The notes under the pieces are model-generated. The model saw nothing but the letters and a program-made list of their open reading frames with translations. It made no database searches and was not told where the DNA came from. Below are positions 3,602-29,834 of a stretch of 64,000 bases of DNA, in pieces. This stretch comes from a virus, in the IMG/VR virus record IMGVR_UViG_3300027709_000056, positions 124,001-188,000 of that record; one strand, written 5' to 3'. Every line of letters starts with the position of its first letter. The first letter of the stretch is position 1. Position numbers and translations under genes: made by a program.

Positions 3602-4255
3602 TTATGTACTGCTATTGTCCTTGGATTCGTCTTCCGACTTGTATGCCCAATCGTCAGTATGTCCTACTGTCCATTTATCTGTATTTTCAACTTTATAGTT
3701 TTGACTACAAACTTTAAAATCACAAGGAAGAGTTTTTTCTGGAATTAAACTAGCATCCGTCCATATTATTCTATTATTCGGTTGTGCCGCAAATTGTCCA
3801 TTGTCTAGTCTAATAATATTAAATGATTTATGTTCCGGATCGTATTCAGCAAATCCTAAATTTACATGGTTCATATCTGCATGACAATTATCTATCGTAA
3901 ACATATACTCGCCTTTATGCATTTTACGATCCTTGCCATAAAATTGACAAGTGCCAAGCATTTGTTTTTCAATAACTGTAAAGTCGTAGTCAAAACAATC
4001 CCATAGTTGTAAGATATGTAATGGTAACGGTTCTGATACTTCTTCTTTCCATACAAACGCTGATAAAGGTAATTTATCATATAACGCCCCGTATTCAGTT
4101 AATAATGTTTCGAAGTATAATGCTTTTCCTAGTACACTTTTTACGCTAATCCATATACCCGGAGTAAGTTCTCCGTGACCTTTTTCCAGGTCATATAAGT
4201 ATTCTTTTTTAACAAGTACGTGTATTGGTGGTATAGAACCAACAAGAAAAGCCAT
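3602..4255 (-). CDS. Conserved-looking protein of unknown function
   Basis: 217 residues, soluble, mixed alpha/beta composition, with an acidic, low-complexity C-terminal tail (about the last 12 residues). The start at 4255 is chosen because GGAG lies at the right distance before it; an ATG at 4270 has no such site. A late-type AATAAATA box ends about 20 bases upstream, so it is probably expressed late and may be virion-associated. I do not recognise a catalytic motif. It is the last gene of the late block running down from 12.2 kb. Confidence 0.6.
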   Translation of the reverse strand: MAFLVGSIPPIHVLVKKEYLYDLEKGHGELTPGIWISVKSVLGKALYFETLLTEYGALYDKLPLSAFVWKEEVSEPLPLHILQLWDCFDYDFTVIEKQMLGTCQFYGKDRKMHKGEYMFTIDNCHADMNHVNLGFAEYDPEHKSFNIIRLDNGQFAAQPNNRIIWTDASLIPEKTLPCDFKVCSQNYKVENTDKWTVGHTDDWAYKSEDESKDNSST

Positions 4256-4273
4256 ACGGTCTCCATTCAAGAT

Positions 4274-4282
4274 ATATTTATT
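4274..4282 (-). promoter_or_regulatory. T4-type late promoter box (AATAAATA)
   Basis: Minus-strand AATAAATATA about 20 bases before the ATG at 4255. It matches the ATAAATA core recognised by T4-like late sigma factor systems, leaving room for a short leader with GGAG. Confidence 0.6.
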
Positions 4283-4297: not shown

Positions 4298-5071
4298 TTA
4301 AGCCTGAGCCTGATTGGCTTTAGCTTGTTTCATTAGTAATTTGAATTTACCAAACAGTTGTGGATCTTGCATCATTGTTTGAATGCTTTGTGTATAAGGT
4401 GCTATTGCTTTTATTAAGTTAGGAGGTAATGTGCTTCCTGCACCCACTTTATCTAATCCTTTAGCTACCATACTTCCACTTGCACTACCGCCAGCAACAC
4501 CTTTTAATGCTGTGGCTCTTTGTGCAACTTTGGCTGTTGCTTTTGGATCTATTGGTGCTTGATCTGATCCTGGTGGAATTTCTTGTGCTGGTGTTTGTGC
4601 TTGTTGTTGTTTAAAACCTTGTGCCGCCTGTTGTGCTACACCTTTAACTTTATCAACACCTTGTCCAACTGCCGCGCCTGCCTGTTGTGCAATTGCTCCA
4701 ACTCCGCCTGCGGCGTCAACAGCTTGTCCAACGGCTTTGGCTCCTTGAGCAATTCCACGTCCAGCCGCTTTGGCTCCTTGACCAGCCGCCTTAGCTCCTG
4801 CTTTAGCTCCTTTAACAGCTAACTTACCAGCCGCCTTAGCTCCTGCTTTAGCTCCTTTAACAGCTAACTTGCCTCCAGCCTTTGCCGCTTTGGCTCCTAC
4901 TTTACCAACACCTTTTGCTACTGCTCCTGCACCCTTCGCCGCCATTCTTCCTATGCCAGCAAGTGCAGGTAATATTTCATTTATTTCTTCGTCAGACATA
5001 CCTTCAGTAATGTAGCCGTGCTTCTTACCGTAATTAATTAAAGCATCTCTTTCAAATTGTTGAAATCTCAT
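4298..5071 (-). CDS. Ala/Gly/Lys-rich histone-H1-like protein with capsid-leader-like N-terminus
   Basis: 257 residues. Residues 1-35 are ordinary (MRFQQFERD...). About 36-175 is a low-complexity region of Ala, Gly, Lys and Gln with KGAK/AGAKAAG units, like the tails of H1-type DNA-condensing proteins. A 15-residue unit (KLAVKGAKAGAKAAG) is repeated exactly twice, encoded by a 45-bp tandem repeat. The C-terminal 60 residues look folded and helical. Its place in a late block of putative capsid-internal proteins suggests it may be packaged with and bind phage DNA; that is inference. An alternative is a membrane-active or scaffold-core protein. Confidence 0.65.
   Translation of the reverse strand: MRFQQFERDALINYGKKHGYITEGMSDEEINEILPALAGIGRMAAKGAGAVAKGVGKVGAKAAKAGGKLAVKGAKAGAKAAGKLAVKGAKAGAKAAGQGAKAAGRGIAQGAKAVGQAVDAAGGVGAIAQQAGAAVGQGVDKVKGVAQQAAQGFKQQQAQTPAQEIPPGSDQAPIDPKATAKVAQRATALKGVAGGSASGSMVAKGLDKVGAGSTLPPNLIKAIAPYTQSIQTMMQDPQLFGKFKLLMKQAKANQAQA
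4782..4871. repeat. 45-bp tandem direct repeat (two copies) inside the Ala/Lys-rich gene
   Basis: Copies at 4782-4826 and 4827-4871 differ only at the last base. They encode two identical 15-residue units in frame, pointing to recent slippage or unequal recombination. Confidence 0.85.
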
Positions 5072-5188
5072 TTATTTTTTCTTCTTTAACCAGTTTAACG
5101 GATTAAGTTTGCCAGCTAGGTCTTCAACTTTTTCGTTTACCCACCAACCAACTACAAAACCGATTATAAATCCTATTGTTAAAAACAT
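5072..5188 (-). CDS. 38-residue single-span membrane peptide
   Basis: Reads MFLTIGFIIGFVVGWWVNEK, then an amphipathic segment and a C-terminal tail of Lys residues. One hydrophobic span (about 1-17) followed by a positively charged end. Its stop abuts the next gene's ATG (TAAATG), and its ATG immediately follows the upstream stop at 5189, so it fits the operon packing exactly. The role is unknown; a tiny holin-like or virion membrane peptide is possible. Confidence 0.6.
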   Translation of the reverse strand: MFLTIGFIIGFVVGWWVNEKVEDLAGKLNPLNWLKKKK

Positions 5189-5587
5189 TTATGCCCCACC
5201 TTTTTTAAGTTGTATCATTAATTGATTTATTTGTTTCTTTAATTCTGCATTTTCTGCCGCGAGTGCTTTAAGTTGTTTTTGCACATTAGGATCTGCTTTT
5301 GCTCCTTTATCCGCTTTCCCTTTTGCCTTAGGATCTGCAAAAGGAATTCTTCCTTTTTTATCCATCGCCTGACCTGGTAAGATACCAGTTGGGTCTTTTG
5401 CTTTTACGGCAGAGCCATGTTTTTTATTAAACATATCCGCATAGCCACTCATTTTATTTGCTATGTTTGAGCCACGAACTGATTTATCAAGTTTTGTGAT
5501 TGGACCACCTTGTGTCCAACCAGCTTTGGCTTTTTGACCTACAGCTTTCGCAAAAGGACCTTCGCTAATTAAATCGCGAATTTTCAT
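5189..5587 (-). CDS. Basic protein with capsid-leader-like N-terminus and C-terminal coiled coil
   Basis: 132 residues. It begins MKIRDLISE followed by Gly: a short basic-hydrophobic leader ending in I-x-E, the cleavage pattern of the T4 prohead protease gp21. The middle is rich in Lys, Gly and Ala; residues about 100-128 form a heptad-like coiled coil (LKALAAENAELKKQINQL). The ATG overlaps the upstream stop (ATGA). Probably a capsid-internal or prohead-core protein (inference from leader, late context and composition). Confidence 0.6.
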   Translation of the reverse strand: MKIRDLISEGPFAKAVGQKAKAGWTQGGPITKLDKSVRGSNIANKMSGYADMFNKKHGSAVKAKDPTGILPGQAMDKKGRIPFADPKAKGKADKGAKADPNVQKQLKALAAENAELKKQINQLMIQLKKGGA

Positions 5588-6081
5588 TTTACAGCGTCCT
5601 TTAATTTGTTATGTAATGTTTCTTTATAAGTAGATTCTTTGTTTACTAAATCAGTTAAAAATTTATTAACTTTTTCTATAGTATCAAATTCACCTACTAG
5701 TTTATTATGTTGGAATACTTTAAAAGGTTCACCTTTGAATTTTGTAGTATGAATTCCATACTTATTCATTCCTGGACCATAAGGATCGGCAGGTTTAGTT
5801 CCTTCTGTAACGCCTGCTGAATCAAATTTTGTTGCATAATCAAGATGATGATAAACTGTACTTAAATAATCTGATGCTTTAGTAATTTTAGCTGAAACCC
5901 ATCCGTCTAAGCCTTCTTCTTCAGACATAGTTTTCATCATCTCATGAAGTTTAATAGAATATTTTGCGGCTTTATATAATTCAGCTCTAGCGAGTTGGAT
6001 TTCGTGGTCTTGCTCAACTTTATGAGCCAAGTCAGCTAAATCTTCTTGAACTTCTTGTTTTGTTATTTCTTTTTCTCGCAT
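5584..6081 (-). CDS. Helical protein of unknown function, putative virion-associated
   Basis: 165 residues. Residues about 30-85 form a helical block (LYKAAKYSIKLHEMM ... GWVSAKITKASDYLSTVYHHLDY) of a type I recall from other marine T4-like phage proteins, without a known function. The C-terminal half is mixed (FKVFQHNKLVGEFDTIEKV). A GATAAATA late box lies about 18 bases upstream inside the end of the preceding gene. SD is weak (AAGGAAAC). Expressed late with its neighbours; role not readable. Confidence 0.6.
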   Translation of the reverse strand: MREKEITKQEVQEDLADLAHKVEQDHEIQLARAELYKAAKYSIKLHEMMKTMSEEEGLDGWVSAKITKASDYLSTVYHHLDYATKFDSAGVTEGTKPADPYGPGMNKYGIHTTKFKGEPFKVFQHNKLVGEFDTIEKVNKFLTDLVNKESTYKETLHNKLKDAVK

Positions 6082-6098
6082 AGTGTTTCCTTATTGTA

Positions 6099-6106
6099 TA
6101 TTTATC
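6099..6106 (-). promoter_or_regulatory. T4-type late promoter box (GATAAATA)
   Basis: Minus-strand GATAAATATAC overlapping the end of the 6102-7991 gene and 18 bases before the ATG at 6081. Confidence 0.65.
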
Positions 6107-7991
6107 GCTTTACAGGTGTGCCACCCATTAAATTATTACCCATATCTAAGGCGTTTACTGTTGTACCGTCAGCTTTTTTCTTTTGTGGTGCCTTAGGTGC
6201 TCCAAATTTACCTTTTTTCTTAGGATTATGATATGCAAGAACAGGATTAGCCACTGTAGCAATAGCACCAGCACTAGTTGAACCAGCTGTAGCTGTTTCG
6301 CCTATTTCTTTCATACCATCATATATTTGTGATTCATAATTTTCAGCGTTTTCTTTATCATAATTAACTTTCCACGTTGCTAATTCTCTATATCTACGTC
6401 TTACTTCATCAGCAAGTTCCGGATCGCTTTTCATATAGCGTTCTAAACTATAAAGAGTTTTCATTTTTTCTCTATAGTCTTCTAAATCTGTAACGCCAAA
6501 TTTTTCTTCAGACATAAATGCTTCCTTTTTATCTTTTGATAATGTTTTTGCTTCTTCTTCATCATCGTCATCATATTCACGTCCTGGAACATTTGTTAGA
6601 TCACGTGCGGCAGTACCAAATTCTTTTTCATCATCATCTGTCCAGTCGTCATCTTCTGGATCTCTATTACTAGGATGATCTGGCCAATTCATTTCATCAT
6701 TTGATGGATCAATACGTCCCCAATATTGGTGTTCGCTTGAGTAGTCTTTAGTTGAATCATAAAATTCGTGGTCTTGAACTCTATCACTATTTTTGCCATC
6801 TAGCCATTTATCAAATGCTTCGTCATAATTTTTTGCAGGTACTTTATAGATGTGCATTTCTGTTGGTGTATCAGTAATCATATGCGTACCTTCTGCATCG
6901 GCATCATAATCATCTGGATCTAACCAGTTACGTCCGATCGGATTTGATTTGTGCCACATTGATGAATATGCTTTATGCGATTTTGAATCAAGATCTTCGT
7001 TTGCTCTTTTTAATGCGTTAGCAACGTCTGGATGTTTTGATAATCCTTTTTTAAGTTTTTCAATAGTATTTGATGCTCCAGTGTAATTGCCATCTTTATA
7101 TCTTTTATCAAAAGCAATACCTTTTGCTTGTTTAATTTCTTTATCAGTTGGTTTTTCTTTATCTTCTTTAATTGCATTACAATCACAATGAGGACAATCT
7201 GGTGGACAATGACATTCGCTAACTGGCACACCACAACAGGCTTCAGGACACATTTTTTCTTTTGCTTCACCTATATCCCATGGATGTTTCCAATCACGTC
7301 TTTTAGTAGCTTTACCTAATGCATCTGTAGGATGTTCAAGATCTAGTTCATCGCGGTTCATATACTTTGTGTCACCGTTTTGAAATTCTACTTTATATAC
7401 TCCAGCTTTAGGATCAGCTTGTATTATTTTTACTCTACGTCCTTTAATTGTTCTTACAACTGTTCCAACTCGATCGTCAATAAATTCTTTAATGCTTTCG
7501 CCGTTTGATCTTGTTTTATATACGTTATGTATTTTGTCAATTGCGTCTGGCCAACCGTCTACAATAACTCTTGACATACTTTCAGCAGGACCGTATTTTT
7601 TATCTAATACGTGTTGAGCTAGTTCTAACCCATAGCCTAAATGAGCTTCAGCAACTCCTAAAAGTCTTGCTGGAGCATTGTCATCAGCTTCTGATACATT
7701 CGTTTTATGTTTGATATATGCTTGGATAATTTCATCATCCATATCGTGTAGAGCTTTCCACTCTGGCATATCAGCATATGGCTTTGCAATTGGATTGTCT
7801 TTATCTTGTTTTATAGGACTTTCTTCAATGTCTTTGTCTTTGTATTTTGCTTTGCGTGGAATTTCTTTAGTTTTATCACCATGAGAACCAGACGCACCAC
7901 TCTTTTTAAGATCTTGCATCTGTTTCCAATTAGGATCGCGGGGTTTTACTACTCTGCCATCCTTATATTTTTTAAGCTCGTTAAATCTCAT
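6102..7991 (-). CDS. Large acidic multidomain protein with a Cys-rich cluster, putative capsid-internal protein
   Basis: 629 residues. The N-terminus MRFNELKKYKDGR resembles the short leaders of its neighbours. Around residue 190-215 is a small beta domain (VGTVVRTIKGRRVKIIQ ... YKVEFQNGD). Around 245-270 is a dense Cys cluster (CPEACC, CHCPPDCPHCDC) with about ten Cys, typical of a Zn or soft-metal site. The central part is strongly acidic (runs of D and E near 440-480) and likely disordered. The C-terminus (GAIATVANP, then Lys-rich, ending GGTPVKR) resembles tails I recall in marine T4-like phage proteins. SD is weak; a CATAAATA late box sits 19 bases upstream. It may be cleaved during prohead maturation; no enzyme activity recognised. 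Confidence 0.65.
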   Translation of the reverse strand: MRFNELKKYKDGRVVKPRDPNWKQMQDLKKSGASGSHGDKTKEIPRKAKYKDKDIEESPIKQDKDNPIAKPYADMPEWKALHDMDDEIIQAYIKHKTNVSEADDNAPARLLGVAEAHLGYGLELAQHVLDKKYGPAESMSRVIVDGWPDAIDKIHNVYKTRSNGESIKEFIDDRVGTVVRTIKGRRVKIIQADPKAGVYKVEFQNGDTKYMNRDELDLEHPTDALGKATKRRDWKHPWDIGEAKEKMCPEACCGVPVSECHCPPDCPHCDCNAIKEDKEKPTDKEIKQAKGIAFDKRYKDGNYTGASNTIEKLKKGLSKHPDVANALKRANEDLDSKSHKAYSSMWHKSNPIGRNWLDPDDYDADAEGTHMITDTPTEMHIYKVPAKNYDEAFDKWLDGKNSDRVQDHEFYDSTKDYSSEHQYWGRIDPSNDEMNWPDHPSNRDPEDDDWTDDDEKEFGTAARDLTNVPGREYDDDDEEEAKTLSKDKKEAFMSEEKFGVTDLEDYREKMKTLYSLERYMKSDPELADEVRRRYRELATWKVNYDKENAENYESQIYDGMKEIGETATAGSTSAGAIATVANPVLAYHNPKKKGKFGAPKAPQKKKADGTTVNALDMGNNLMGGTPVKR

Positions 7992-8008
7992 AGTTTTTCC
8001 TAGCTTTA

Positions 8009-8017
8009 GTATTTATG
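8009..8017 (-). promoter_or_regulatory. T4-type late promoter box (CATAAATA)
   Basis: Minus-strand GCATAAATAC 19 bases before the ATG at 7991, overlapping the C-terminal codons of the upstream HAD gene. Confidence 0.6.
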
Positions 8018-9764
8018 CTTTTGCTAGTTTCGTAGCTGTAGCATACATAACTGCTTTAGCGTCATCGCCATAGCGTTTTGTGAAGCCTTTTTTGTCTTTT
8101 TTCATGCCCTTAACAATACGTTCTTTGCTTTTTTCTTCACCCTTTGAAAGTTCACGCTCTGTAGCTGGATTTCTACCTTTTCTAGCGTGTGCTCTAGGCG
8201 AATGTTCATCATCATGTATAGTATAGTTTTTACCATCCCACGTTACATCATGACCTGAAAGAAGTTCATATATTTTCTTTAATAACCTTGGGTCATATTC
8301 TGATTTGCCATATCCTTTTTGTGGCTGTCTAACTTTATCAGCAACAAAGTCTTTAAAATCGCTGTATTTCATTTTTAAAGGACCTTCACTAATAACTATA
8401 CTTTCTGGAGTATCGTATCTAGTATCTACATTGCCGTCTACATCTTTAGTTTTATATCCTATACGTTTTAAATTTTTCTTTAAATGTTTCTTTTCACCTT
8501 TGCCACCATAAGGTGCTATCATAACGCTAGGGTCACCAGCATTTTTATCATCTTTTTTTGATTTTTTTACATTTGCTATATTTGTTCCTACTCTAAGAAA
8601 ATCTGATGATGAATCTGTATCTACAGCAAAGCTGTTTTTAGGATTAGGAATTAATTCACCTTCTTTAAAATATTTTTCTAAGTTTTTAGCAGTTCTTTCG
8701 AACTTATGATCTTTATGTTTAAATCCTATTCCACCAGCACCTTCCCATTTAGCAACATTTTGCCCAAAGTCATCAATTAAGATGTTTGGTGTTCCATCTT
8801 TTTGTACAGCATATTGTTTTTTATTAGTTGTAATAATAACATCATCGGGTGGAAATGCTTTTAAATTCTTTTGCACCCATTCTCTTTTACTAGGCTCAAC
8901 TCTATGATCGTCTGCCATCGGTGCAGAAAGAATTATGTAACTTCCTTTAATTTGTTTAATAATGCCTAATAGATTATCGGCATTAGATGTTGGTTTTAGT
9001 TTAGTCCAAAAGTCTGGAGTATTTCTAATTTTATCAAGTCCTACATTTACATTCGAAATGTCTTTCCAAGTTTTAACTCCCATTAATTTAGTCCAAGCAC
9101 CAAAGAAATCTACAAGTACTCCATCCATGTCTACATAAATTTTGCTGTTACTTGATAAACCTTTAGCTTCTTTTTCTTGTAGGTTATCTGGAACATCAAA
9201 TTGCCATACTTTACCCTTACCAGTTGTTCTTATTGCCGCGGTAAGTCTTGTATTACCACCTACAAGCTCTAACCATCCATCACTATAACTTGCAACAATA
9301 GGTAATTCAATTTTACCTGTTTGTAATTGTTGTACTACTCTTTTTTTCCGTACAGGATCTATTTTATCCCAATCTTTTACGTTACCAGCTTCAGTATTTT
9401 TAATCTTTTTAACTGTTTCAGCATCATAGTCTACTACTTTACCTTTTTTAGCAAGAGCAATCCATTTATCTTTACCTATATTTTTAAATTCCTTGTAACG
9501 TTTTGCTTCGCCCCATTCATTATCAAAGTTAGGGTCAGTATATGCAATAGAGTTTTTTGATTCTGACATTCCTAAATTAAAAAGTGTATTAGGGTTAGTA
9601 TTTTTGTATGCTTTATCGTGCATAAAGTAGCCAGGACGGCCATCTTTGTCAACTTTGTTTCCGAATTTAGCGGCTTGTTTTTTAATTTCGTCAGGGCCTA
9701 CGTCAGATGTTTGATTCTGCTTTGTAATTCTGCCGACACCTTCGTATAACTGACGTAATTTCAT
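8013..9764 (-). CDS. ParB-like plus HAD 5'-nucleotidase-like protein with capsid-leader-like N-terminus
   Basis: 583 residues from the ATG at 9764, which overlaps the upstream stop (TAATG). It begins MKLRQLYEG, a leader ending in L-Y-E. Domains: about 150-185 has a ParB-like core (LPIVASYSDGW then LVGGNTRLTAA); about 200-380 is a HAD domain of the 5'(3')-deoxyribonucleotidase type (IYVDMDGVLVDFF motif I, ILSAP motif II, ILIDDFGQN motif IV); the last about 60 residues (SKERIVKGMKK ... RYGDDAKAVMYATATK) form a short helical tail I recall in other marine phage proteins. A nucleotidase could salvage nucleotides or cut modified nucleotides; if packaged it would act at infection onset. The domain calls are by motif; the combination is unusual. 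Confidence 0.7.
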   Translation of the reverse strand: MKLRQLYEGVGRITKQNQTSDVGPDEIKKQAAKFGNKVDKDGRPGYFMHDKAYKNTNPNTLFNLGMSESKNSIAYTDPNFDNEWGEAKRYKEFKNIGKDKWIALAKKGKVVDYDAETVKKIKNTEAGNVKDWDKIDPVRKKRVVQQLQTGKIELPIVASYSDGWLELVGGNTRLTAAIRTTGKGKVWQFDVPDNLQEKEAKGLSSNSKIYVDMDGVLVDFFGAWTKLMGVKTWKDISNVNVGLDKIRNTPDFWTKLKPTSNADNLLGIIKQIKGSYIILSAPMADDHRVEPSKREWVQKNLKAFPPDDVIITTNKKQYAVQKDGTPNILIDDFGQNVAKWEGAGGIGFKHKDHKFERTAKNLEKYFKEGELIPNPKNSFAVDTDSSSDFLRVGTNIANVKKSKKDDKNAGDPSVMIAPYGGKGEKKHLKKNLKRIGYKTKDVDGNVDTRYDTPESIVISEGPLKMKYSDFKDFVADKVRQPQKGYGKSEYDPRLLKKIYELLSGHDVTWDGKNYTIHDDEHSPRAHARKGRNPATERELSKGEEKSKERIVKGMKKDKKGFTKRYGDDAKAVMYATATKLAKA

Positions 9765-10366
9765 TATGCCGCCCAAACATGAGTTGCACCACGTTGTTTT
9801 CCAATACGTGCAATTTTATTCATCATCATTATTACTTCATTAAAGTAACCTTCACGTTTGCCGCCACCAATCATTGTAGCACCGCCGCCACTTTTATCTA
9901 CTGTAGTAGGTTCCTCTGCTGAACGTTTGCCTATATGTCGTTTTAACCATTGAGTAGTGAATGCAATGAACTCGTCTATAGGGACATTAGAGTCCGGATC
10001 TCCAAATCCAAGCTCGTCAAACACTTCACGCATATTTGAATTAGACAAATTTAAATCTAGTTCTGGATCGTAATCAGGATTTTCAGGTGGTTCTTCATCA
10101 CCATACATATACTTGTCTGAATTTTTATAAAAGTCATCACCATAACGGCTTCCTGAATCAGTATCGCTAGTCCAGTAACCTTTTTCTTTGTCTTTATGAC
10201 CAGCGGCAAAGCTCATACTTTCATTAGCTTTATTATTGCCTTTGTTTTTAAAGTCAAATCTGTTATTTGGACCAATACCTTTTTTATGTATTAAACCTTG
10301 TGGCTTAATTGTTTGAGGCATTATTATCCATTCTTGTTTGTAACCTAAAACTTCAGTTATTTTCAT
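9764..10366 (-). CDS. Protein of unknown function with capsid-leader-like N-terminus
   Basis: 200 residues, begins MKITEVLGYK (I-T-E near the start). Residues about 45-100 are Asp/Ser/Gly-rich and probably disordered; 105-145 is helical (NMREVFDELGFG, DEFIAFTTQWLKRHIGK); then a Gly-rich stretch and a C-terminal helix (EVIMMMNKIARIGKQRGATHVWAA). Its ATG overlaps the upstream stop (ATGA), its stop overlaps the next ATG. No family recognised; context suggests a late, virion-internal protein. Confidence 0.6.
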   Translation of the reverse strand: MKITEVLGYKQEWIIMPQTIKPQGLIHKKGIGPNNRFDFKNKGNNKANESMSFAAGHKDKEKGYWTSDTDSGSRYGDDFYKNSDKYMYGDEEPPENPDYDPELDLNLSNSNMREVFDELGFGDPDSNVPIDEFIAFTTQWLKRHIGKRSAEEPTTVDKSGGGATMIGGGKREGYFNEVIMMMNKIARIGKQRGATHVWAA

Positions 10367-10581
10367 TTTTTACGCCCCCTAAATGGTACGTTACTTGCAA
10401 CCATGAAAGGTCTACTAAACCAAAGTTTGAACCAATCTTCTGTACCTGGTTTAATACCTTGTTCTTTTTCTTTTTTCTTTAATGCCGCGGCAGTTATACT
10501 AGGATTCTCGTCTATTTTGTATTCAGAGTATCCTTGAAACTCGTTAACCCCTGCTAATTGTTTTAATCTTTCTATATCCAT
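10363..10581 (-). CDS. Small protein of unknown function in the late block
   Basis: 72 residues, begins MDIERLKQLAGV. Short helical N-terminus, then a KKKEKEQGIKPGTEDWFKLWF segment and a basic end (FRGRKK). Its stop overlaps the next ATG by four bases. Composition and position match the other leader-bearing proteins, but it has no clear I/L-x-E site right after the leader. Confidence 0.55.
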   Translation of the reverse strand: MDIERLKQLAGVNEFQGYSEYKIDENPSITAAALKKKEKEQGIKPGTEDWFKLWFSRPFMVASNVPFRGRKK

Positions 10582-10582
10582 T

Positions 10583-10750
10583 TTACTTTTTATCTATTCC
10601 ACAATATTTACTTGCTTCGTCTACTTTGCCCATGCTAATTTTATGAAATGTTTTCATAATGTTTTTATGCTTTACGTTATTCGGACATGAACATTGCCAT
10701 TGATACATCGCTTCGCATTTTACACAATATCTAGACTTTAGTTTACTGAT
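10583..10750 (-). CDS. Cys-rich small protein without an upstream ATG (possible non-AUG start)
   Basis: The frame from 10750 to the stop at 10583 is open and exactly fills the gap between two genes, reading KLKSRYCVKCEAMYQWQCSCPNN and then a basic helix ending YCGIDKK. CxxC and CxC suggest a small zinc ribbon. AAGGAG lies six bases before an ATC codon at 10750 and no ATG exists until 10708, so initiation may be at ATC, at the adjacent ATT, or at 10708 (41 residues, weak GAAG site). Start undecided; the frame itself is likely real because its stop sits one base before the next ATG. Confidence 0.45.
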   Translation of the reverse strand: MSKLKSRYCVKCEAMYQWQCSCPNNVKHKNIMKTFHKISMGKVDEASKYCGIDKK

Positions 10751-11753
10751 TAGAATCTCCTTCTATTCGGGTTACGTTACTTGCGTCAAAGATTAATAAA
10801 CCTTCAACAGCTTTATCACTAACTACTCCATCATATCCTGCTTCTTTTAAGTCCATTGTTAGTATTGCTGAGTACATTTTATCTCCAGTATACTCCCAAG
10901 GTTTAAGTCCCATTTTTGCTTTGATATCTGCTACTTCGTCGCTTTGATAATCAGCTATTTTTAACCCTGGCTTTACTTTATACTTAACAATCTCACCATC
11001 AGCACCATGATGTATTGAAAATGCATTCGCGGCAGACTCAGTCCATGTAAGATAAACTCCTCTACCTAATGCACCTAGTCCTAAACCTTTGCCCCCTTTA
11101 CCTTCTCCTCGGTAAAATACGCCGTCTTCTTTCTTATATAAATGTGGATAAAAATCTGCTTCTGATTCTATTATTTCACCTTCTTTGATTCCCATTCCAT
11201 CACGTACTTTATTGTACAACATTGTTGCTACTTTAGGATCTGTACTACATACACCTGATTTAAAAGTTTGAAGATCACCCTCAGCCGCCGCAGTTTTCAT
11301 TTTAGTTGCACTCATTCCTTCAGCACCTTCGGCATCTGGATCACGTTGTCCTGCACTTACAACATTTATAGAACTAAATGTATAATCATCGCCGCCATTA
11401 TATTTGTTTAATAATTCATCAAAACTTTTTACACGATCATCGCCCGCAACATATATAATATCTGTAAATCTTCTAGCATATAGGAACTTCATAGCATCTA
11501 TAATAGTTCTAACACTATCGTGGCCTATAGAGATACCGTCACCGAAACACTTACGGGCAAAAAAAACTTTTTCTGCAAATGTTAATGGATCTGTTTTAGG
11601 TTTTTGTGTGTGGGTTAAGAATAAAAAAGGACTGCCTGGTTGTTGCTTTACTACGTCTGCTAATTTGCCATGACCAATAGTAGGTGGGTTCATTCGCCCG
11701 AAGGCAAATACCGCAGTTTTTCCGTCTGCTTCAAATACATGGCGTAAACGCAT
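10743..11753 (-). CDS. Nucleotidyltransferase fused to an ADP-ribosyltransferase-like domain, capsid-leader-like N-terminus
   Basis: 336 residues. It begins MRLRHVFEA (leader with F-E at the expected cut). Residues about 13-180 form a cytidylyltransferase/NMN-adenylyltransferase-like domain: FGRMNPPTIGHG matches the (H/T)xGH nucleotide-binding motif, and GMSATKMKTAAAEGD matches the distal S-x-T-x-x-(R/K) motif. Residues about 205-330 look like an ADP-ribosyltransferase of the ART-PolyVal type: FYRGE, GRGVYLT, ANAFS, KYKVKPGLKI, then GYDGVV and EGLLIFDAS. The first domain type makes or uses NAD-like dinucleotides; the second consumes NAD. The start ATG overlaps the upstream stop (TAATG). By analogy with T4 Alt, an injected ART, the product may be packaged; that is inference. 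The exact substrate (NMN, CTP-type or other) is not decided. Confidence 0.65.
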   Translation of the reverse strand: MRLRHVFEADGKTAVFAFGRMNPPTIGHGKLADVVKQQPGSPFLFLTHTQKPKTDPLTFAEKVFFARKCFGDGISIGHDSVRTIIDAMKFLYARRFTDIIYVAGDDRVKSFDELLNKYNGGDDYTFSSINVVSAGQRDPDAEGAEGMSATKMKTAAAEGDLQTFKSGVCSTDPKVATMLYNKVRDGMGIKEGEIIESEADFYPHLYKKEDGVFYRGEGKGGKGLGLGALGRGVYLTWTESAANAFSIHHGADGEIVKYKVKPGLKIADYQSDEVADIKAKMGLKPWEYTGDKMYSAILTMDLKEAGYDGVVSDKAVEGLLIFDASNVTRIEGDSNQ

Positions 11754-12097
11754 TAATAATCACCTTGTCTTATTAACTCCATTTCCTCACCATAGATTTT
11801 TTCAACTAAAGAATCTATTTCTTCTTGTTGTAGCAAATCTTCAGGCTTTCGTGGAATGTTATACTTGGCACAATAATGGTTAATGCCTTGTTTAACCATG
11901 GGTAACATCGCTAGTTTCGTATCAATCGGATTGCCTGACTTTAAGTTGTCCTGCATACCAGCAATTGTTGGATAATATTGTTTACGATAAAACATAGGAT
12001 CGTTCTTCATATGAATATGAAGGTCCTCTACAACATTAAAGCCTAACTCTGGCTTCTCGGCTGGGTCTTGTTTATCTATAAATTCAGTTATTTTCAT
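11753..12097 (-). CDS. Small helical protein with capsid-leader-like N-terminus
   Basis: 114 residues, begins MKITEFIDKQDP (same MKITE start as the 9764-10366 product). Mostly helical and charged, with KPELGFNVVEDLHIHMKNDPMFYRK near the start and a C-terminal EEIDSLVEKIYGEEMELI helix. I recall similar proteins in marine T4-like phages but no function. The stop overlaps the next ATG (TAATG). Confidence 0.6.
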   Translation of the reverse strand: MKITEFIDKQDPAEKPELGFNVVEDLHIHMKNDPMFYRKQYYPTIAGMQDNLKSGNPIDTKLAMLPMVKQGINHYCAKYNIPRKPEDLLQQEEIDSLVEKIYGEEMELIRQGDY

Positions 12098-12099
12098 AA

Positions 12100-12204
12100 T
12101 TAGTCTTCTGTCCTAGTACAGCATTCACAACGCATTTGAGAGGTGCATTCGCATGGATCACACGTACATCTATCGCTGGAACATTGGTCGTTATTACAAG
12201 CCAT
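12100..12204 (-). CDS. Metallothionein-like Cys-rich microprotein
   Basis: 34 residues, nine of them Cys. The core reads CTCDPCEC, the CxCxxCxC signature of bacterial SmtA/BmtA metallothioneins (SmtA has CACEPCLC), followed by CECC. SmtA-type proteins are about 56 residues; this one lacks the His-containing half. A perfect AGGAGG lies eight bases before the ATG and a GATAAATAC late box about 22 bases upstream, so it is the first gene of the late block and should be strongly translated. Role inferred: binding Zn or Cu in the infected cell or virion. It could instead be a structural zinc microprotein. Confidence 0.7.
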   Translation of the reverse strand: MACNNDQCSSDRCTCDPCECTSQMRCECCTRTED

Positions 12205-12225: not shown

Positions 12226-12234
12226 GTATTTATC
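12226..12234 (-). promoter_or_regulatory. T4-type late promoter box (GATAAATAC)
   Basis: Minus-strand CTGATAAATACTC about 22 bases before the ATG at 12204, followed by a leader with AGGAGG. It appears to head the late block running to about 8 kb. Confidence 0.7.
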
Positions 12235-12245: not shown

Positions 12246-12515
12246 CTATACGGAAATTTCTACGTCGAAGTGATTGTAGCCTAAATCGAATAATTTATTG
12301 GCAATACGTTCAGCTACTATTGTGGATTCGGAGTCTTTAAGGGCTTTATGTGTTTCTACAGTTAATACAAGTCCACCCTGTTCAGTTTCCATTAGTTGAT
12401 AGTTTGTTTCATCTTCAAGTAATGCTTCATCGGCGCAATTAATAACTGCATCAGCAACTACTCCGTCTACATCATCAACTTTCTTTTCCCAAACTACGTT
12501 AATAAAGTGTTTCAT
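12246..12515 (-). CDS. Small acidic protein of unknown function
   Basis: 89 residues, alpha/beta pattern (MKHFINVVWEKKVDD ... GLVLTVETHKAL ... IANKLFDLGYNHFDVEISV), no membrane segment or signal peptide. AGGAA lies six bases before the ATG. It follows the 12525-12866 gene in the same direction and ends just before the late promoter at 12.2 kb. Not recognised. Confidence 0.6.
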   Translation of the reverse strand: MKHFINVVWEKKVDDVDGVVADAVINCADEALLEDETNYQLMETEQGGLVLTVETHKALKDSESTIVAERIANKLFDLGYNHFDVEISV

Positions 12516-12524
12516 GCTATATTC

Positions 12525-12866
12525 CTAATGATTTAACAGTATAGACGTTACTGTACCGGCTGTATATGTGACGTAAGCCCTAACAAATACAAAGTTGCCT
12601 GTAAAGTTCTTAAAATAACTGTTTCCTGACCCTGATTCTTCTGTACCAGCAATATCTCCCCAATCAGCATCAACCGGCGTTGTTGCTAATGTACCCTGCA
12701 TTTTAATAGTACCATTAAAATCGACAACATTATACTGAACAGTATGAAATCCATCTGCTCTACCATAATAGCCATCGCCTTTAAATGCTTCCCCAACTAC
12801 TGTTTGAGGAGTACTATCTCCGGGATGTACATTCTGTGTTAAAATTGTTTCGCTTATACTGGACAT
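12525..12866 (-). CDS. Putative virion structural protein, small beta-sandwich
   Basis: 113 residues, Thr/Gly/Ser/Asn-rich with alternating hydrophobics and a C-terminal FKNFTGNFVFVRAYVTYTAGTV pattern I recall from marine T4-like phage structural proteins. No Shine-Dalgarno. A GATAAATA box ends exactly five bases before the ATG, so with T4 late geometry transcription would begin on the A of ATG, giving a leaderless mRNA. Function beyond virion structure not readable. Confidence 0.6.
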   Translation of the reverse strand: MSSISETILTQNVHPGDSTPQTVVGEAFKGDGYYGRADGFHTVQYNVVDFNGTIKMQGTLATTPVDADWGDIAGTEESGSGNSYFKNFTGNFVFVRAYVTYTAGTVTSILLNH

Positions 12867-12870
12867 ACTA

Positions 12871-13551
12871 TTATTTATCTATATCCTGCTTTACAATTAT
12901 TGTGTCTACCCTACTAATATTGCCAGATAAAAATAACATAGCAAGAGTGAACACTTTTTCGTCACGTAGATATAGATATTTGCCCTTTACGTACCCTCGT
13001 TCGCCGATAGCTTTAAGAAGCCCTGGACTTACTCGTACTTTGTCTGGATTTGATTTTGCCCAGTCATAAAAATTAGGGTCAATTTTGCCAGATCCTAATG
13101 TTACTTTATACTGGTACGCAAATGGAATATTTCTAACTAAAATATTCTTGTTTTCAAGGAGTAAATTTGCTGTAGATTCTGCTGGCTCGTAAAAATCACA
13201 AACACAATCGAGTTTTTTACCTATAAGTTTAAGCCATGTGTCATTATTTGAAAATATTCCAACTTTACGTTGTTCGCAACGCACCATAAAGTTTTCTGCT
13301 TCTTGGAATTGTGTTAATAAGTATTTTAAATCGTGTAATTCATCTACATTAATATCGATATGCCGTAAAGCATCTGCACACGTTTTATATTGTATTGGTT
13401 GGTCTTCTTCTTGATGTAATTGTAGTTCGTCGATCACTGCTCGGGCGTGGGTGAGATTTTTATTGCGGAATATAAATCCTAAAGGATTATATACTCCCAA
13501 TTTATACAGATACTTGTCATAGAATAATTTTTTAGTTTCATATTTTATCAT
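12871..13551 (-). CDS. Conserved-looking protein of unknown function
   Basis: 226 residues, soluble, mixed. The start at 13551 is preferred over an in-frame 13581 because it lies just after the clpA stop with GGGGAG five bases before it. N-terminal half helical (DLKYLLTQFQEAENFMVRCEQRK), C-terminal half with YDWAKSNPDKVRVSPGLLKAIGERGYVKGKYLYLRDEKVF. No catalytic motif recognised. It follows clpA, so a proteolysis- or assembly-related role is possible but unsupported. Confidence 0.6.
   Translation of the reverse strand: MIKYETKKLFYDKYLYKLGVYNPLGFIFRNKNLTHARAVIDELQLHQEEDQPIQYKTCADALRHIDINVDELHDLKYLLTQFQEAENFMVRCEQRKVGIFSNNDTWLKLIGKKLDCVCDFYEPAESTANLLLENKNILVRNIPFAYQYKVTLGSGKIDPNFYDWAKSNPDKVRVSPGLLKAIGERGYVKGKYLYLRDEKVFTLAMLFLSGNISRVDTIIVKQDIDK
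12872..12879 (-). promoter_or_regulatory. Late promoter box (GATAAATA) placed for a leaderless transcript
   Basis: Minus-strand GATAAATA-ATAGT-ATG: five bases separate the box from the start codon at 12866. The box overlaps the stop of the upstream gene. Confidence 0.6.
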
Positions 13552-13561
13552 GCATACTCCC

Positions 13562-15811
13562 CTAATGGATTGTATGTTCAACTTCTTCTATATTTAATAC
13601 AAATTCCTTATCTTTAACGGCTATGTTAACTTTTCCACCATCTTTTAATTTACCAAACAATAACATCTTAGATAATGGACGTTTAATATCATTATCTATA
13701 ACTCGCTGTAATGGCCTTGCACCCATTTTTTGACTAAAGCCTTTATCAACTAATACATCTATAGCTTCATCAGAAATAGTAATGTCAACATCTTTATCTT
13801 TTAACATAGTTTTTAATTGTACTAAGAACTTACCAACAATTTTTATCATTGTATTTTTATCTAATTTACTAAATGTAACAACACCATCTAATCTATTTCT
13901 AAACTCTGGTGGAAAGAATCGTTTAAGTTCAGCATCTTCAAAGTCAGGCTCTTCAGAACCAAATCCTATTAGTGTTTTTTCTGCGTCTTCGGCCCCTAAA
14001 TTAGTTGTTAATATTAAAATAATATTTCTACAATCTGCTGTTTTACCGTTACTACCTGTAATAAATCCGTTATCCATTATTTGTAATAACAATGAACTAA
14101 CATCAGGGTGTGACTTTTCAATTTCGTCTAGTAATAAAACACAATTAGGTGTTTCTTGTAATGCTGTAATAAGTTGCCCTGCATTTTCTTCAAATCCTAC
14201 ATATCCTGGAGGTGAACCAATTAGTTTAGCAACAGAATGCTTCTCTTGGAATTCACTCATATCAAATCTAACAAGTTTTACACCTAGTTGGAATGCAAGT
14301 TGTCTAGCAGTTTCAGTTTTACCTATACCTGTTGGACCCATAAACACAAAAGAACCAATTGGTTTACGTTCTTCTTTAAGTCCTGCTTGGGCAACAAGAA
14401 TTTTATCAACTACATTTTTAAGAGCTTTATCTTGTCCATAAATTTCACCCTGAAGATTCTTCTCTAAATTAGCAAGATTACTTGTTTCTTTTTCTTTAAT
14501 TTGCTCTTCAGGAAGATTAACCATTTTTGCTAATTCAAATTGTATTTCTTCGGCCTGAACAAATTTATTATCCGGAGTTGTAACTGATTTAATATTAAAT
14601 CTAGAACAAGCACAATCAAGTAAGTCAATAGCTTTGTCAGGTAGCTTTTTATCTGTTTGATATTTGATGCTTAACTTAATTGCGGCATCAACAGCGTCTT
14701 CTGTAATAGTAGTATTATGAAATTCTTCATAATATTTTTTAATTCCCATTAAAATTTCTTTTGTAATTTCTTTACTAGGTTCATCAACAGTAACTCTAGC
14801 AAATCTACGCATTAATGCCCTATCATTTTCAAAGTACTTGCGGAATTCTTCCCAAGTAGTAGATGCAACTACTTTAATATTGCCTCTAGTTAATACAGGT
14901 TTTAACATATTTGCAAGATCGTTTGAACTGCTACTACCAGCCGCTCCTGCTCCACTAATCATATGTGCTTCGTCGATAAACACAATAGTTTTACCACGTT
15001 TCTTTAATGCTGTAATTACTAACTTAAAGCGTTCTTCAAAATCTCCTCTATACTTACTACCGGCTAACATAGAACCAATGTCTAAATTATAAACATTATA
15101 TTCTTGTAAAAATACAGGACATTCTTTCTTTACAATTTTCCAAGCAAGTCCTTCTGCTATAGCAGTTTTACCTACACCAGGATCACCAACAAGTAATACA
15201 TTATTCTTTGAACGTCTACCAAGTGCTAATGCAATTGTATCTAATTCTTCGTGTCTACCTACTACAGGATCAATTTTACCTGCATCAACTGATTGATTTA
15301 AGTTTGTTGTAAATGAACGTAATGCTCTAGTAGCCAATCCTGATACTTCTTCATCTTCATAATTGGCTTCTAATTCGTTGTTTAAATAATCTGCAAATTT
15401 AGTCTTATCAACATCTGCTTTAGCAATATGAAAGTATGCCCATGATTTAGTTTCGTTCATCATACTAAGAAATACGTCTGATATTTCAATATGTTGTCGT
15501 CCACTAAACAATACCTGTGTAAATGCTCTATTAAGAACACGTTCAACAGCATGAGTTTTCTTAGGCTTGTATTTTTTACCTTGAACTTCAGCAGTTTCGA
15601 TAGCTTGTAAGTTGTTTTTTAGATAATGCTCAAGATTCTTTTTAATTAATTCGTGGTCAGTTCCGAATCCTTCTAAAATTTTTGCGAAGCTTTCCTCACA
15701 GAGCATGGCAAACAATAAATGTTCAATAGTTACGTATTCATGCTTTAACTTTTTTGAAACATCTACTGCTTTATCAAAAACCAACTGTAATTGTTCACTG
15801 GGTTCTACCAT
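13562..15811 (-). CDS. clpA: ClpA-like AAA+ unfoldase (Clp protease ATP-binding subunit)
   Basis: 749 residues, the usual ClpA length. N-domain with two helical repeats (1-150), first AAA+ module with Walker A GDPGVGKT (about 209) and VFIDEAH, second with GPTGIGKT (about 489) and LLLDEIEKSHPD, and a Clp D2 C-terminal domain. The IGF tripeptide (about 612, TLIGFGSE) sits where ClpA carries the IGL loop that docks on ClpP, so it should work with host ClpP and not as a ClpB-type disaggregase; the long coiled middle domain of ClpB is absent. The sequence gives no ClpP gene in the window. It would redirect host proteolysis. Upstream deformylase stop is four bases from its ATG. Confidence 0.92.
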   Translation of the reverse strand: MVEPSEQLQLVFDKAVDVSKKLKHEYVTIEHLLFAMLCEESFAKILEGFGTDHELIKKNLEHYLKNNLQAIETAEVQGKKYKPKKTHAVERVLNRAFTQVLFSGRQHIEISDVFLSMMNETKSWAYFHIAKADVDKTKFADYLNNELEANYEDEEVSGLATRALRSFTTNLNQSVDAGKIDPVVGRHEELDTIALALGRRSKNNVLLVGDPGVGKTAIAEGLAWKIVKKECPVFLQEYNVYNLDIGSMLAGSKYRGDFEERFKLVITALKKRGKTIVFIDEAHMISGAGAAGSSSSNDLANMLKPVLTRGNIKVVASTTWEEFRKYFENDRALMRRFARVTVDEPSKEITKEILMGIKKYYEEFHNTTITEDAVDAAIKLSIKYQTDKKLPDKAIDLLDCACSRFNIKSVTTPDNKFVQAEEIQFELAKMVNLPEEQIKEKETSNLANLEKNLQGEIYGQDKALKNVVDKILVAQAGLKEERKPIGSFVFMGPTGIGKTETARQLAFQLGVKLVRFDMSEFQEKHSVAKLIGSPPGYVGFEENAGQLITALQETPNCVLLLDEIEKSHPDVSSLLLQIMDNGFITGSNGKTADCRNIILILTTNLGAEDAEKTLIGFGSEEPDFEDAELKRFFPPEFRNRLDGVVTFSKLDKNTMIKIVGKFLVQLKTMLKDKDVDITISDEAIDVLVDKGFSQKMGARPLQRVIDNDIKRPLSKMLLFGKLKDGGKVNIAVKDKEFVLNIEEVEHTIH

Positions 15812-15815
15812 TTAG

Positions 15816-16343
15816 TTACCTTCTATTATATAATTTATCATATTTTTTAAAGTACTTCTGTCGCTTCTTTTTAGCCATATTGAGCTTTAGCTTACTTACT
15901 CTATCTATAAAATTAATTCCGTATAAATGGTCGTATTCATGCCCAAATATTCTAGCATTCCAACCTTGTAACTCTATTGTACACTCTTTTTGCTTACTGT
16001 CAAGACAATCTATTATCAATCCAGCTGGACGTTTTACTTTAATATATAAAAAAGGAAAACTTAAACACCCTTCTTCACCTATAATTGTTTCTTCTGTTAC
16101 GTGAGTTATTTTGGGATTAATTATAGCAAATGCTTTGTCATCTTCATAGCCTTTTAATTCTACAGGCTTCATAATAAAAATTTGTGCATCTAATTCTACT
16201 TGATTAGCCGCCAATCCGACACCGTGTTTCTCATCCATAATAGATATCATATCGCGTTCTATATCTAAAGCATTATGCTCAGTAAAATCAAACGGCTTTA
16301 CTGTTTTTTCTAACCAACTATTTGGAGCTTCTATTAATTTCAT
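15816..16343 (-). CDS. def: Peptide deformylase
   Basis: 175 residues, the usual length. Removes the N-formyl group from nascent proteins. All three motifs are intact: GVGLAANQ (41-48), EGCLSFP (91-97, Cys metal ligand) and HEYDH (135-139, two His ligands and the catalytic Glu). The C-terminus ends in a Lys-rich helix (KKKRQKYFKKYDKL), unlike the short tails of most phage deformylases. Its ATG overlaps the dnaJ stop (ATGA), so it is coupled to dnaJ and followed by clpA. Confidence 0.95.
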   Translation of the reverse strand: MKLIEAPNSWLEKTVKPFDFTEHNALDIERDMISIMDEKHGVGLAANQVELDAQIFIMKPVELKGYEDDKAFAIINPKITHVTEETIIGEEGCLSFPFLYIKVKRPAGLIIDCLDSKQKECTIELQGWNARIFGHEYDHLYGINFIDRVSKLKLNMAKKKRQKYFKKYDKLYNRR

Positions 16344-18955: not shown

Positions 18956-19620
18956 TAATTGTCTCCCTGGGAATCTAAGCCACCCATACCTTGAACTATT
19001 TGGTAAGGTAATTCATTAATATCTGTAATTTTGCCATCTTCGTCTACAGTAAATCTAAGAACAGTTTTTTCTTCACCTTTTATAGTTAACATTACTTCTT
19101 TAATATAAACGACACCATATGGGTTTAATTTTTCAACATTAACCCTTACAGGTATTATTTCAAAATAATCATTTTTTGCAACATCGTGTCTAGGAGTACG
19201 TCTATATAAATGTACGTTTACAATATATTCTCCAGGAATGATGCCTCTAATTGTTACGTGTTCTATATTTTGACGGACATAAATTTTGTCGCCAGATGTA
19301 GTTGTAATAGTGTCATTAGATCTACCTAAGTCATCTCTATCTAGATTCATTAAGCCACGATCTTTTTGTTTAAAGCCAACTATATTGCCAGCCGGGTCTT
19401 TGACCCAAGTATCAATATCGTCTGCACTATTATCAGGCCAGCTAGTTGTTATAATAAATTCTGCAATTACTTCTACATTAGATTTTTTAGCAACTGGATT
19501 TATTAAGATAAAAGCTAAAACAAAAAGGAAAACAAAACCCACTAAGGTATTAAATAGCAAATCAATAAATGCTATTTGGGAACCGTATGTTCTAATTCGA
19601 TCAAGTCGAAGAAATCTCAT
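18955..19620 (-). CDS. TolR/ExbD-like single-span membrane protein
   Basis: 221 residues. Short basic cytoplasmic N-terminus, then one transmembrane helix (about 17-40) with the family's membrane Asp: AFIDLLFNTLVGF, Asp20, matching the PFIDxxxxLL motif of ExbD/TolR, where this residue carries protons. The periplasmic part (about 42-221) is beta-rich and longer than the about 90 residues of ExbD, with GEYIVNVHLYRR and VRVNVEKLNPYG stretches. Overlaps the ExbB-like gene end by 20 bases. With that partner it would form a proton-driven inner membrane motor. Confidence 0.7.
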   Translation of the reverse strand: MRFLRLDRIRTYGSQIAFIDLLFNTLVGFVFLFVLAFILINPVAKKSNVEVIAEFIITTSWPDNSADDIDTWVKDPAGNIVGFKQKDRGLMNLDRDDLGRSNDTITTTSGDKIYVRQNIEHVTIRGIIPGEYIVNVHLYRRTPRHDVAKNDYFEIIPVRVNVEKLNPYGVVYIKEVMLTIKGEEKTVLRFTVDEDGKITDINELPYQIVQGMGGLDSQGDN

Positions 19621-20131
19621 TCCTGTACCTTTCGAGGTCTTGTTGGAGCCTAAAGTACTGGAATTTTAATAGTGTGCTTGTTATTAAACCGGTAAGTGTA
19701 GTGTAAAGAGCAGTAGACATTCCTACTGCCATGTTTGCCAGTGCTTGTTGAACTGATGATACATCTGATATATTGATTCCATGAAATGCTCCTGCTAACA
19801 TCAATATGAAACCAGCAACAGTACCAATTAGCCCCATTGTTAATAAAACATCCGAAGCGAACCATCCTGTTTCGTGTCGAATGTCTACGTTTTTAATTTC
19901 GTCTAATTCTTTATTTGCTAGTTTACTTAACAACCAGGATTCATAACCGCAATGAACTGTCATACCATAGAAGATGGCCAAGATGAAAAACGATAGTTTC
20001 GTTTTATCTTGTATCCAAAGAGTAGTGTGTACGTCGAATAAAAATAGCCCTATAGTCGCAACTATTAATAAACTGAAGAACCACCACCACTTCAAGAAGA
20101 TAGTGTGTTTCCTAATAGTCGATATGTCCAT
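19601..20131 (-). CDS. MotA/TolQ/ExbB-family proton-channel protein
   Basis: 176 residues. Hydrophobic helices at about 15-32, 45-62, 93-115 and 127-150. The block LLTMGLIGTVAGFILMLAGAF followed by ALANMAVGMSTALYTTLTGLI is the hallmark of this family's last two helices. In the family, a pentamer surrounds a dimer of the ExbD/TolR/MotB partner, here encoded directly after it. A CTAAATA late-type box lies eight bases before the ATG and no Shine-Dalgarno is seen. A phage-encoded motor of this kind suggests a role in envelope energisation, lysis timing or exclusion; not decided from sequence. Confidence 0.8.
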   Translation of the reverse strand: MDISTIRKHTIFLKWWWFFSLLIVATIGLFLFDVHTTLWIQDKTKLSFFILAIFYGMTVHCGYESWLLSKLANKELDEIKNVDIRHETGWFASDVLLTMGLIGTVAGFILMLAGAFHGINISDVSSVQQALANMAVGMSTALYTTLTGLITSTLLKFQYFRLQQDLERYRNEISST

Positions 20132-20139
20132 GACAATAG

Positions 20140-20147
20140 TATTTAGT
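20140..20147 (-). promoter_or_regulatory. Variant late promoter box (ACTAAATA)
   Basis: Minus strand reads ACTAAATA-CTATTGTC-ATG; one change from the ATAAATA core, eight bases from the exbB-like start at 20131. Confidence 0.4.
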
Positions 20148-20173
20148 TTTTTTTATTCCGGGTGGTCTTATTA

Positions 20174-27796: not shown

Positions 27797-27954
27797 TTGC
27801 CTCGATTCTCCTGTCCAGCCGCAACCAAAATTATAAACACATATAAAATTGGCCAAGCCCAGCCTATTAAATGTCCTGTAATATGTAAAACCATTAGTGC
27901 AATACCTGTTGCCCCAGCAGTTCCTATACTAAATCTTTGACTCGGTAATTGCAT
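27793..27954 (-). CDS. Small membrane protein, first gene of the gp44 operon
   Basis: 53 residues: MQLPSQRFSIGTAGATGIAL then two hydrophobic stretches (about 10-33 and 34-46) and a polar tail. GAGGAAAC precedes the ATG at 27954 and its stop overlaps the gp44 ATG (ATGA), so it is translationally coupled. Not recognised. The sigma70-type promoter 22-50 bases upstream supports that it is a real gene. Confidence 0.65.
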   Translation of the reverse strand: MQLPSQRFSIGTAGATGIALMVLHITGHLIGWAWPILYVFIILVAAGQENRGK

Positions 27955-27975
27955 AAAGTTTCCTCAGTTTATAGT

Positions 27976-28004
27976 ATTATAAACTAAAATTAGATGTGTG
28001 TCAA
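27976..28004 (-). promoter_or_regulatory. Sigma70-type promoter upstream of the gp44 operon
   Basis: Minus strand: TTGACA (28004-27999), 17-base spacer, TATAAT (27981-27976). Perfect hexamers. Predicted start near 27969, leader about 15 nt containing GAGGAAAC. Should drive the small membrane gene, gp44, oxygenase, ferredoxin, parvulin, thyX and the 24169-24918 gene. Confidence 0.87.
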
Positions 28005-28012
28005 GTATTAAT

Positions 28013-29504: not shown

Positions 29505-29823
29505 TTACTTCATTAGGATCAAAGCCAAGACTCCGACAAGCAGAAGCCCAGTACCACATAATATCGCCCAGTTCTCGCTTGAGATGAAATACAGTTTCAT
29601 CGTTAAGTGGTTTACCTTGGAACAAACATTTTTTAACAATTTCACTAAATTCTCCTCCTTCACTGGATAATCCAATTGATGCTGTTAATAGTAATGATAT
29701 GTTAATTCCGGTTGTACTTTCTAGTTCTTGTACTCTACCAAAGAATGCACCGGACTTATCACTTTCTACTGACGTAACACCTTTAACAAACTCAACGTAA
29801 CGTTCTAAGTTAATGTTTTCCAA
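29413..29823 (-). CDS. mazG: MazG-type nucleoside triphosphate pyrophosphohydrolase
   Basis: 136 residues, single MazG domain. Metal-binding acidic motifs: SEGGEFSEIVKK (E-x-x-E) and KRELGDIMWYW (E-x-x-D), plus RYPGGKF near the end. Hydrolyses NTPs or dNTPs to monophosphate and pyrophosphate; in phages it is thought to tune nucleotide or ppGpp pools. A CTAAATAA-like sequence upstream coincides with the groES stop codon and was not counted as a promoter. Confidence 0.92.
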   Translation of the reverse strand: MENINLERYVEFVKGVTSVESDKSGAFFGRVQELESTTGINISLLLTASIGLSSEGGEFSEIVKKCLFQGKPLNDETVFHLKRELGDIMWYWASACRSLGFDPNEVIAENVKKLESRYPGGKFDIHHSENRSTGDL

Positions 29824-29834
29824 CTTAATTTCCT

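Follow-up and report, generated by a model that had tools for sequence, protein, structure and literature searches.

Leaders resembling the T4 capsid-targeting sequence mark a probable block of virion-cargo genes in a T4-like phage

Introduction

Why should a run of neighboring phage genes with unrelated products begin with nearly the same few residues? The question is raised by nine genes, g1 to g9, at positions 4298–12097 of a 64,000-nucleotide stretch of marine viral DNA (the window), which covers positions 124001–188000 of the 199,810-base record IMGVR_UViG_3300027709_000056. A sequence-only reading described these nine open reading frames (ORFs) and their N-termini as we find them, and proposed that seven basic/hydrophobic leaders, several with a Glu at the expected cut, mark an array of capsid-delivered effectors. 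To our knowledge, few injected cargo proteins are known outside the T-even phages.

In phage T4, the first ten residues of internal protein IPIII suffice for targeting, and cleavage by the gp21 protease follows the rule L/I-x-E (PMC9026906). Alt loses six residues by a cut at ITE-6 (PMC5694885), and Ip1–3 have only the leader in common, each blocking a distinct GmrSD restriction enzyme (PMC12373910). As we discuss below, several lines of evidence suggest that the g1–g9 block is probably a late-expressed cassette of virion cargo, targeted to the prohead and trimmed by gp21 by way of a T4-type leader.

Results

First, we compared the block with the rest of the record, using a gene list from a simple ORF caller, the counts of which are approximate. 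A strict pattern, M[KR][ILVF]...E(5-10), which was written after the data had been seen, matches 7/9 block genes and 4/198 other genes (Fisher p = 4e-9). A looser T4-derived rule (Lys or Arg at residues 2–3, hydrophobic-x-Glu ending at residues 5–14) matches 7/9 and 19/198, respectively (p = 7e-6). The leader is much more frequent in the block than chance. It is not exclusive to the block, as had been claimed, because two clear leader genes adjoin the capsid genes, a few kb from those for gp20, gp21, and gp23 (record 27891–30867; L003:8891–11867). They encode low-complexity proteins of 789 residues (record 27891–30260; MKLQEVFAYNLKTQHILTE/G, where the slash here and below marks the predicted cut) and 198 residues (record 30271–30867; MKVHQIISE/S), which on sequence grounds are candidate core or cargo proteins. 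Their position beside capsid genes means that the error about exclusivity favors a head role for the leader. The remaining two of the four outside matches look like chance, one being a peptide-deformylase-like start.

Second, a gp21-like prohead protease, which the earlier reading had proposed to look for elsewhere in the genome, is encoded at record positions 19517–20167 (PF03420, 4.9e-26). Together with genes for gp23 (PF07068) and gp20 (PF07230) in the same record, this protease gene identifies the virus by gene content as a T4-like myovirus. Relatives of the block proteins occur in Methylophilales phage Melnitz, Pelagibacter phage HTVC008M, and cyanophages; a near-identity search among named phages gave no match.

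All block genes lie on the (-) strand. A strict L/I-x-E site is present in g9 (11753..12097; 114 residues), with leader MKITE/F (nucleotides (nt) 12083–12097; ITE) and orthologues starting MKINEF, MKIKELDE, or MKLVEF; in g6 (9764..10366; 200 residues), with leader MKITE/V (ITE); and in g5 (8013..9764), where a 583-residue protein, starting at the ATG at 9764 and not the TTG at 9776, has leader MKLRQLYE/G (nt 9741–9764; LYE) and a 5'(3')-deoxyribonucleotidase domain at residues 209–350. Such a site is also found in g2 (5189..5587; 132 residues), with leader MKIRDLISE/G (nt 5561–5587; ISE) and no homologues among the IMG/VR loci that we fetched, and in g1 (4298..5071), where an Ala/Lys-rich protein of 257 residues carries the 23-residue leader MRFQQFERDALINYGKKHGYITE/G (nt 5003–5071; ITE). 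The sequence-only reading had recognized a leader in g1 but put its site at FE7, whereas orthologues, which retain ...GYITE/GMS or RYITE/SMS, back ITE/G at residue 23. In g8 (10743..11753; 336 residues), leader MRLRHVFE/A (nt 11730–11753) precedes a nucleotidyltransferase domain and a variable C-terminal domain. The weakest case is the leader-like MRFNE/L of g4 (6102..7991; 629 residues with a Cys-rich stretch), the orthologues of which have MRIRE/V or MRLRE/V. Gene g3 (5584..6081; 165 residues; MREKEITKQEVQE/D) had been left out, but belongs to the leader set because its orthologues read MREKDLKE/GLADLA. Finally, g7 (10363..10581; 72 residues) starts MDIERLKQLAGVNE..., without a leader of the block type; its family, MDIxxLKxLAG[IV]NE, is kept beside the block in many IMG/VR loci and had no match in named phages. 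By eye, the first residues of g7 look similar to those that end the scaffold protein (DIRRLAGLN).

Third, late promoters frame the block, as previously described. Because the exact sequence TATAAATA occurs only once in the window, where shuffling predicts 13 copies, we took the late promoter as ATAAATA, mostly with a non-T before it. This motif lies 8–60 nt upstream of a same-strand gene start in 31/45 cases, compared to 2–20 of 67–147 for seven control 7-mers. Copies on the (-) strand stand at the head of the block (12227..12233; GATAAATAC), 25 nt upstream of g4 (8010..8016), 24 nt upstream of g3 (6099..6105), and upstream of the next gene (3602–4270), where the copy at 4275..4281 bounds the block. 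Judged from these motifs, the block is late-expressed. ATAAATA also precedes 12263–13705 and 15763–16146 in the structural region. Across the record, the motif is found mostly just upstream of genes, and off-promoter copies appear avoided.

Fourth, the leader recurs among relatives. We counted the tag M[KR]-hyd-x-[EDQHRKST]-hyd (hyd, hydrophobic) over 106 stretches from related genomes and the phage's own, including IMG/VR loci L010–L105, which were fetched by scans with three block proteins. It occupies the N-terminus of 179/1661 proteins (10.8%) but follows only 24/7480 internal Met residues (0.32%). Families were defined by a 50% mutual-coverage rule, which replaced single-linkage BLAST clustering that had merged multi-domain proteins; 40/407 of them are tagged, an upper count in that some low-complexity families were split. 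The search of related genomes that the earlier reading had suggested thus places the leader on many unrelated families. An [LIVFM]xE site occurs at residues 7–25 in 32/40 tagged versus 111/367 untagged families, and in the tagged families with a site, P3 is Ile or Leu in 24/32, P2 varies, and P1' is Gly, Ala, Ser, or Asn in 23/32, compared to a background of 27%. As a sequence pattern, this leader matches the published gp21 rule. We relied on the anchored tag and on conservation because a plain [ILVFM]xE[GASN] rule gave only a modest excess (46 N-terminal families versus 13–35 at control offsets).

Conservation centers on the Glu. In a 20-sequence alignment of the g8 nucleotidyltransferase, only M1 and E8 are invariant before G19, and among 20 aligned orthologues of the g5 nucleotidase, no position within residues 1–10 other than M1 and E8 is invariant. 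Hydrophobic-x-Glu precedes the domain in 51/51 nucleotidyltransferases and 47/47 nucleotidases with a recognizable domain start, mostly with Glu at position 8, in orthologues that are phylogenetically linked. Might the block starts nevertheless be a matter of chance, with M-K/R starts and Glu being common in AT-rich phage genes? The loose rule does match 9.6% of the other record genes (19/198) and 9% in cyanophage S-SCSM1, but the enrichment in the block, at N-termini over internal Met residues, and in tagged families, as well as the conserved site before both domains, already disfavored chance, and we regard it as extremely improbable.

Leaders and bodies are also recombined. Four g6-related forms join the different leaders MKIKDLGAVVEGIIE, MKIKELGLAE, MRIKDLDESIIE, and MRYTELLE to the same body, SMSF[AS]AGHKD. 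In g6 orthologues, the leader is followed directly by E/SMSFAAGHKD; here the equivalent junction is E49/S50, and residues 12–49, for which other phages have a matching segment within g5, resemble a block module that has been inserted. In L030, L042, and L023, the beginning of g4 is joined to the body of g3. Phages also exchange the C-terminal half of g8. By these comparisons, the block is modular, with modules shuffled among its genes. The swaps of the g4 start and the g5 segment, and the identity of the first 15 nucleotides in g6 and g9, could be taken to mean that similar starts merely record where shuffled cassettes were joined and play no part in targeting. Most block leaders, however, encode the shared protein pattern with different codons, which argues for selection on the protein, and we consider an explanation by recombination joints alone very improbable.

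Fifth, two leader proteins have enzyme domains. For g5, the 5'(3')-deoxyribonucleotidase assignment comes from PF06941 (4.5e-9) and phrog_2643 (6.8e-24), and Foldseek agrees; for g8, phrog_3041 (1.6e-48) identifies a nucleotidyltransferase, and Foldseek returns PPAT/NaMNAT folds (phosphopantetheine and nicotinate-nucleotide adenylyltransferases; E ~4e-6). The names "nucleotidase/ParB" and "nucleotidyltransferase-ART" in the sequence-only reading therefore hold in one part each. The C-terminal part of g8 gave no Pfam or PHROG match and no related PDB sequence, and its structural model is of low confidence; residues 75–205 of g5 gave no Pfam match and one weak PHROG of no known function (0.034). 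Neither the ART nor the ParB label thus found support from profiles.

Sixth, relatives of g8 are found in virions. The S-CREM2 particle proteome (PMC10665884) includes a nucleotidyltransferase with N-terminus MKNFSSFLTE/A, an S-adenosylmethionine (SAM) hydrolase (MKDFDSFLEE), a kinase (MKRFDAFLTE), gp13 (MKDLHSFLTE), and gp136 (MQTFSMFFSE). The S-SM1 nucleotidyltransferase T4-GC190, which starts MKKFSAFLNE/A, was found in virions (PMC3037559), as was the S-SCSM1 NMNAT (PMC9602691), which starts MKSFLQFLKE/A; of S-SCSM1 genes 89–97 around the latter, 7/9 carry a virion annotation. For S-CREM1, 14 virion proteins are listed. We fixed the loose T4 rule before any counts were made, although the virion N-termini had by then been viewed; it matches 7/28 non-structural virion proteins of S-CREM2 versus 6/167 undetected proteins (p = 6e-4). 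A strict S-CREM2 regular expression, made after the data were seen, did not carry over to S-SCSM1. Nucleotidyltransferase relatives in Klebsiella phage K64-1 and E. coli phage SHEFM2K lack a leader, as they begin with the catalytic domain itself, and are encoded beside a DNA methyltransferase gene; the text of the RaK2 paper does not mention a nucleotidyltransferase. Separately, S-CREM2 gp12 (OR473000; L109 7704–10313), a virion protein annotated as Cas9, contains the leader-like RFASFMAE/A at residues ~18–26, within its first 30 residues.

These enzymes bear on a further explanation, in which the leader serves scaffold-like head-core proteins that, in the manner of gp67/gp68 of T4, give the prohead its shape and end up structural or degraded rather than delivered. 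Two leader genes do lie a few kb from gp21/gp22, and several leader proteins are of low complexity or lack an enzyme domain; the products of g1 (257 residues, Ala/Lys-rich) and g2 (132 residues) and the 198- and 789-residue proteins could equally be head-core proteins. The block nevertheless includes a nucleotidyltransferase and a deoxyribonucleotidase, and leader-bearing enzymes survive in S-CREM2 particles. As an account of the leader, a purely head-core role is unlikely, although it deserves some weight.

Three small ORFs on the (-) strand that had gone uncounted accompany the block: 12100..12204 (34 residues, Cys-rich), directly behind the late promoter; 10583–10708 (41 residues, Cys-containing); and 5072–5188 (38 residues, with a hydrophobic N-terminal segment). 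A ClpA/B-type AAA protein (phrog_4871, 1.6e-243) is encoded a few genes upstream of the block (window 13562–15811, (-) strand), near genes with deformylase- and DnaJ-like starts. Elsewhere, at record ~45544–60267, a frame open for ~14.7 kb suggests a giant protein of ~4,900 residues.

Discussion

How might the block proteins act? By the cargo reading that we prefer, the leader would function as the capsid-targeting sequence of T4 does: it would attach to the prohead core while the head is being assembled, and the phage's own gp21-type protease would then cut after hydrophobic-x-Glu. The mature protein would remain in the head with the DNA and be delivered into the host. There, at the onset of infection, nucleotides of the host or the phage would be acted on by the nucleotidyltransferase and nucleotidase. 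Conservation, the gp21 gene, the late promoters, and the virion proteomes of relatives together give good support to a leader that targets the capsid and is cleaved by gp21. By analogy with those relatives, a virion location of the block proteins is likely; we infer targeting, cleavage, and delivery into the host, and by analogy with T4 the proteins are possible injected effectors. What survives of the proposed array of capsid-delivered effectors is thus its capsid-targeting, gp21-type leader, which both sequence and relatives' proteomes favor, and not its exclusivity or its ART and ParB names.

Several observations weigh against this reading. Virion presence is supported through relatives only, and the orthologues behind the 51/51 and 47/47 counts are not independent. 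In S-SCSM1, the loose rule was not enriched (2/22 non-structural virion proteins versus 22/234 others, p = 0.64), and one protein that starts with a T4-like leader, MKTFKQFMSES, is missing from those annotated as detected. Because the S-CREM2 enrichment did not replicate there, the loose rule alone is an unreliable virion predictor, and our argument relies instead on conservation and the nucleotidyltransferase family. Core interactions may also differ from those of T4, since the scaffold protein is closest in sequence to those of jumbo phages (121Q, RaK2, Atu_ph07, and Pseudomonas phage 30-3). Moreover, g8 (VFE), g3 (VQE), and g4 (FNE) depart from strict L/I at P3, and the HTVC008M nucleotidyltransferase (MKTLKELLRKK) is without the Glu. 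Members without a good cleavage site, such as g4 and the HTVC008M protein, and an AlphaFold model with a low-confidence helix at residues 2–7 would fit an N-terminal helix that gp21 does not process and that, left uncleaved, docks on the outside of the head, the neck, or the tail. Against such docking, the invariant P1 Glu, variable P2, and I/L-rich P3 are the signature of gp21, and g6 orthologues fuse leader to body exactly at E/S; we judge it quite unlikely.

A broader proposal, which we advance tentatively and rate slightly below an even chance, is that a general and exchangeable tag at the N-terminus lets marine T4-like phages pack dozens of unrelated proteins into their heads and deliver them, with nucleotide, NAD-type, SAM-hydrolase, kinase, and nuclease-like enzymes possibly among the cargo. 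If this proposal is true, then N-terminal sequences alone could suffice to read out which proteins abundant ocean phages inject. With a recognizable leader, a block of genes labeled "hypothetical proteins" would become a list of virion-cargo candidates open to testing, and leader cleavage could be examined directly in the mass-spectrometry data that already exist for cyanophages. A literature search, incomplete in coverage, found no paper describing such leaders for cyanophages or their relatives.

Comparison with known systems places the block as follows. Head and ejection proteins of SPN3US and phiKZ also carry propeptides at the N-terminus, which a gp21-related protease removes by cutting after x-x-E, and cargo there is ejected, but most of those propeptides are longer than 100 residues, and the sites read A-x-E or S/A/G-x-E. 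The cyanophage nucleotidyltransferases (S-SM1, S-CREM2, S-SCSM1) share with g8 a homologous catalytic domain and a Glu-ended leader and come from purified virions; unlike g8, they have leaders of the MKxFxxFLxE type and another C-terminal domain, and the available sections of the virion papers do not remark on the leader. T4 Alt is cut after I-T-E, and g6 and g9 have ITE at residues 3–5; Alt, however, sheds six residues plus a C-terminal piece, no homology to it was seen, and an ART in g8 is unconfirmed. The closest parallels are with T4 IPI–III, where a short N-terminal leader obeying the L/I-x-E rule is common to otherwise unrelated proteins, a gp21 protease is encoded in the same genome, and expression is late (here judged by promoter motifs). 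The block differs in its M[KR][IL]R-type leader, in a cargo that includes large enzymes and many more families, in its larger size, and in that cleavage and injection would follow by analogy. We therefore view it as a variant of the T4 internal-protein kind rather than a new kind, of interest for the breadth of its cargo and its direct testability.

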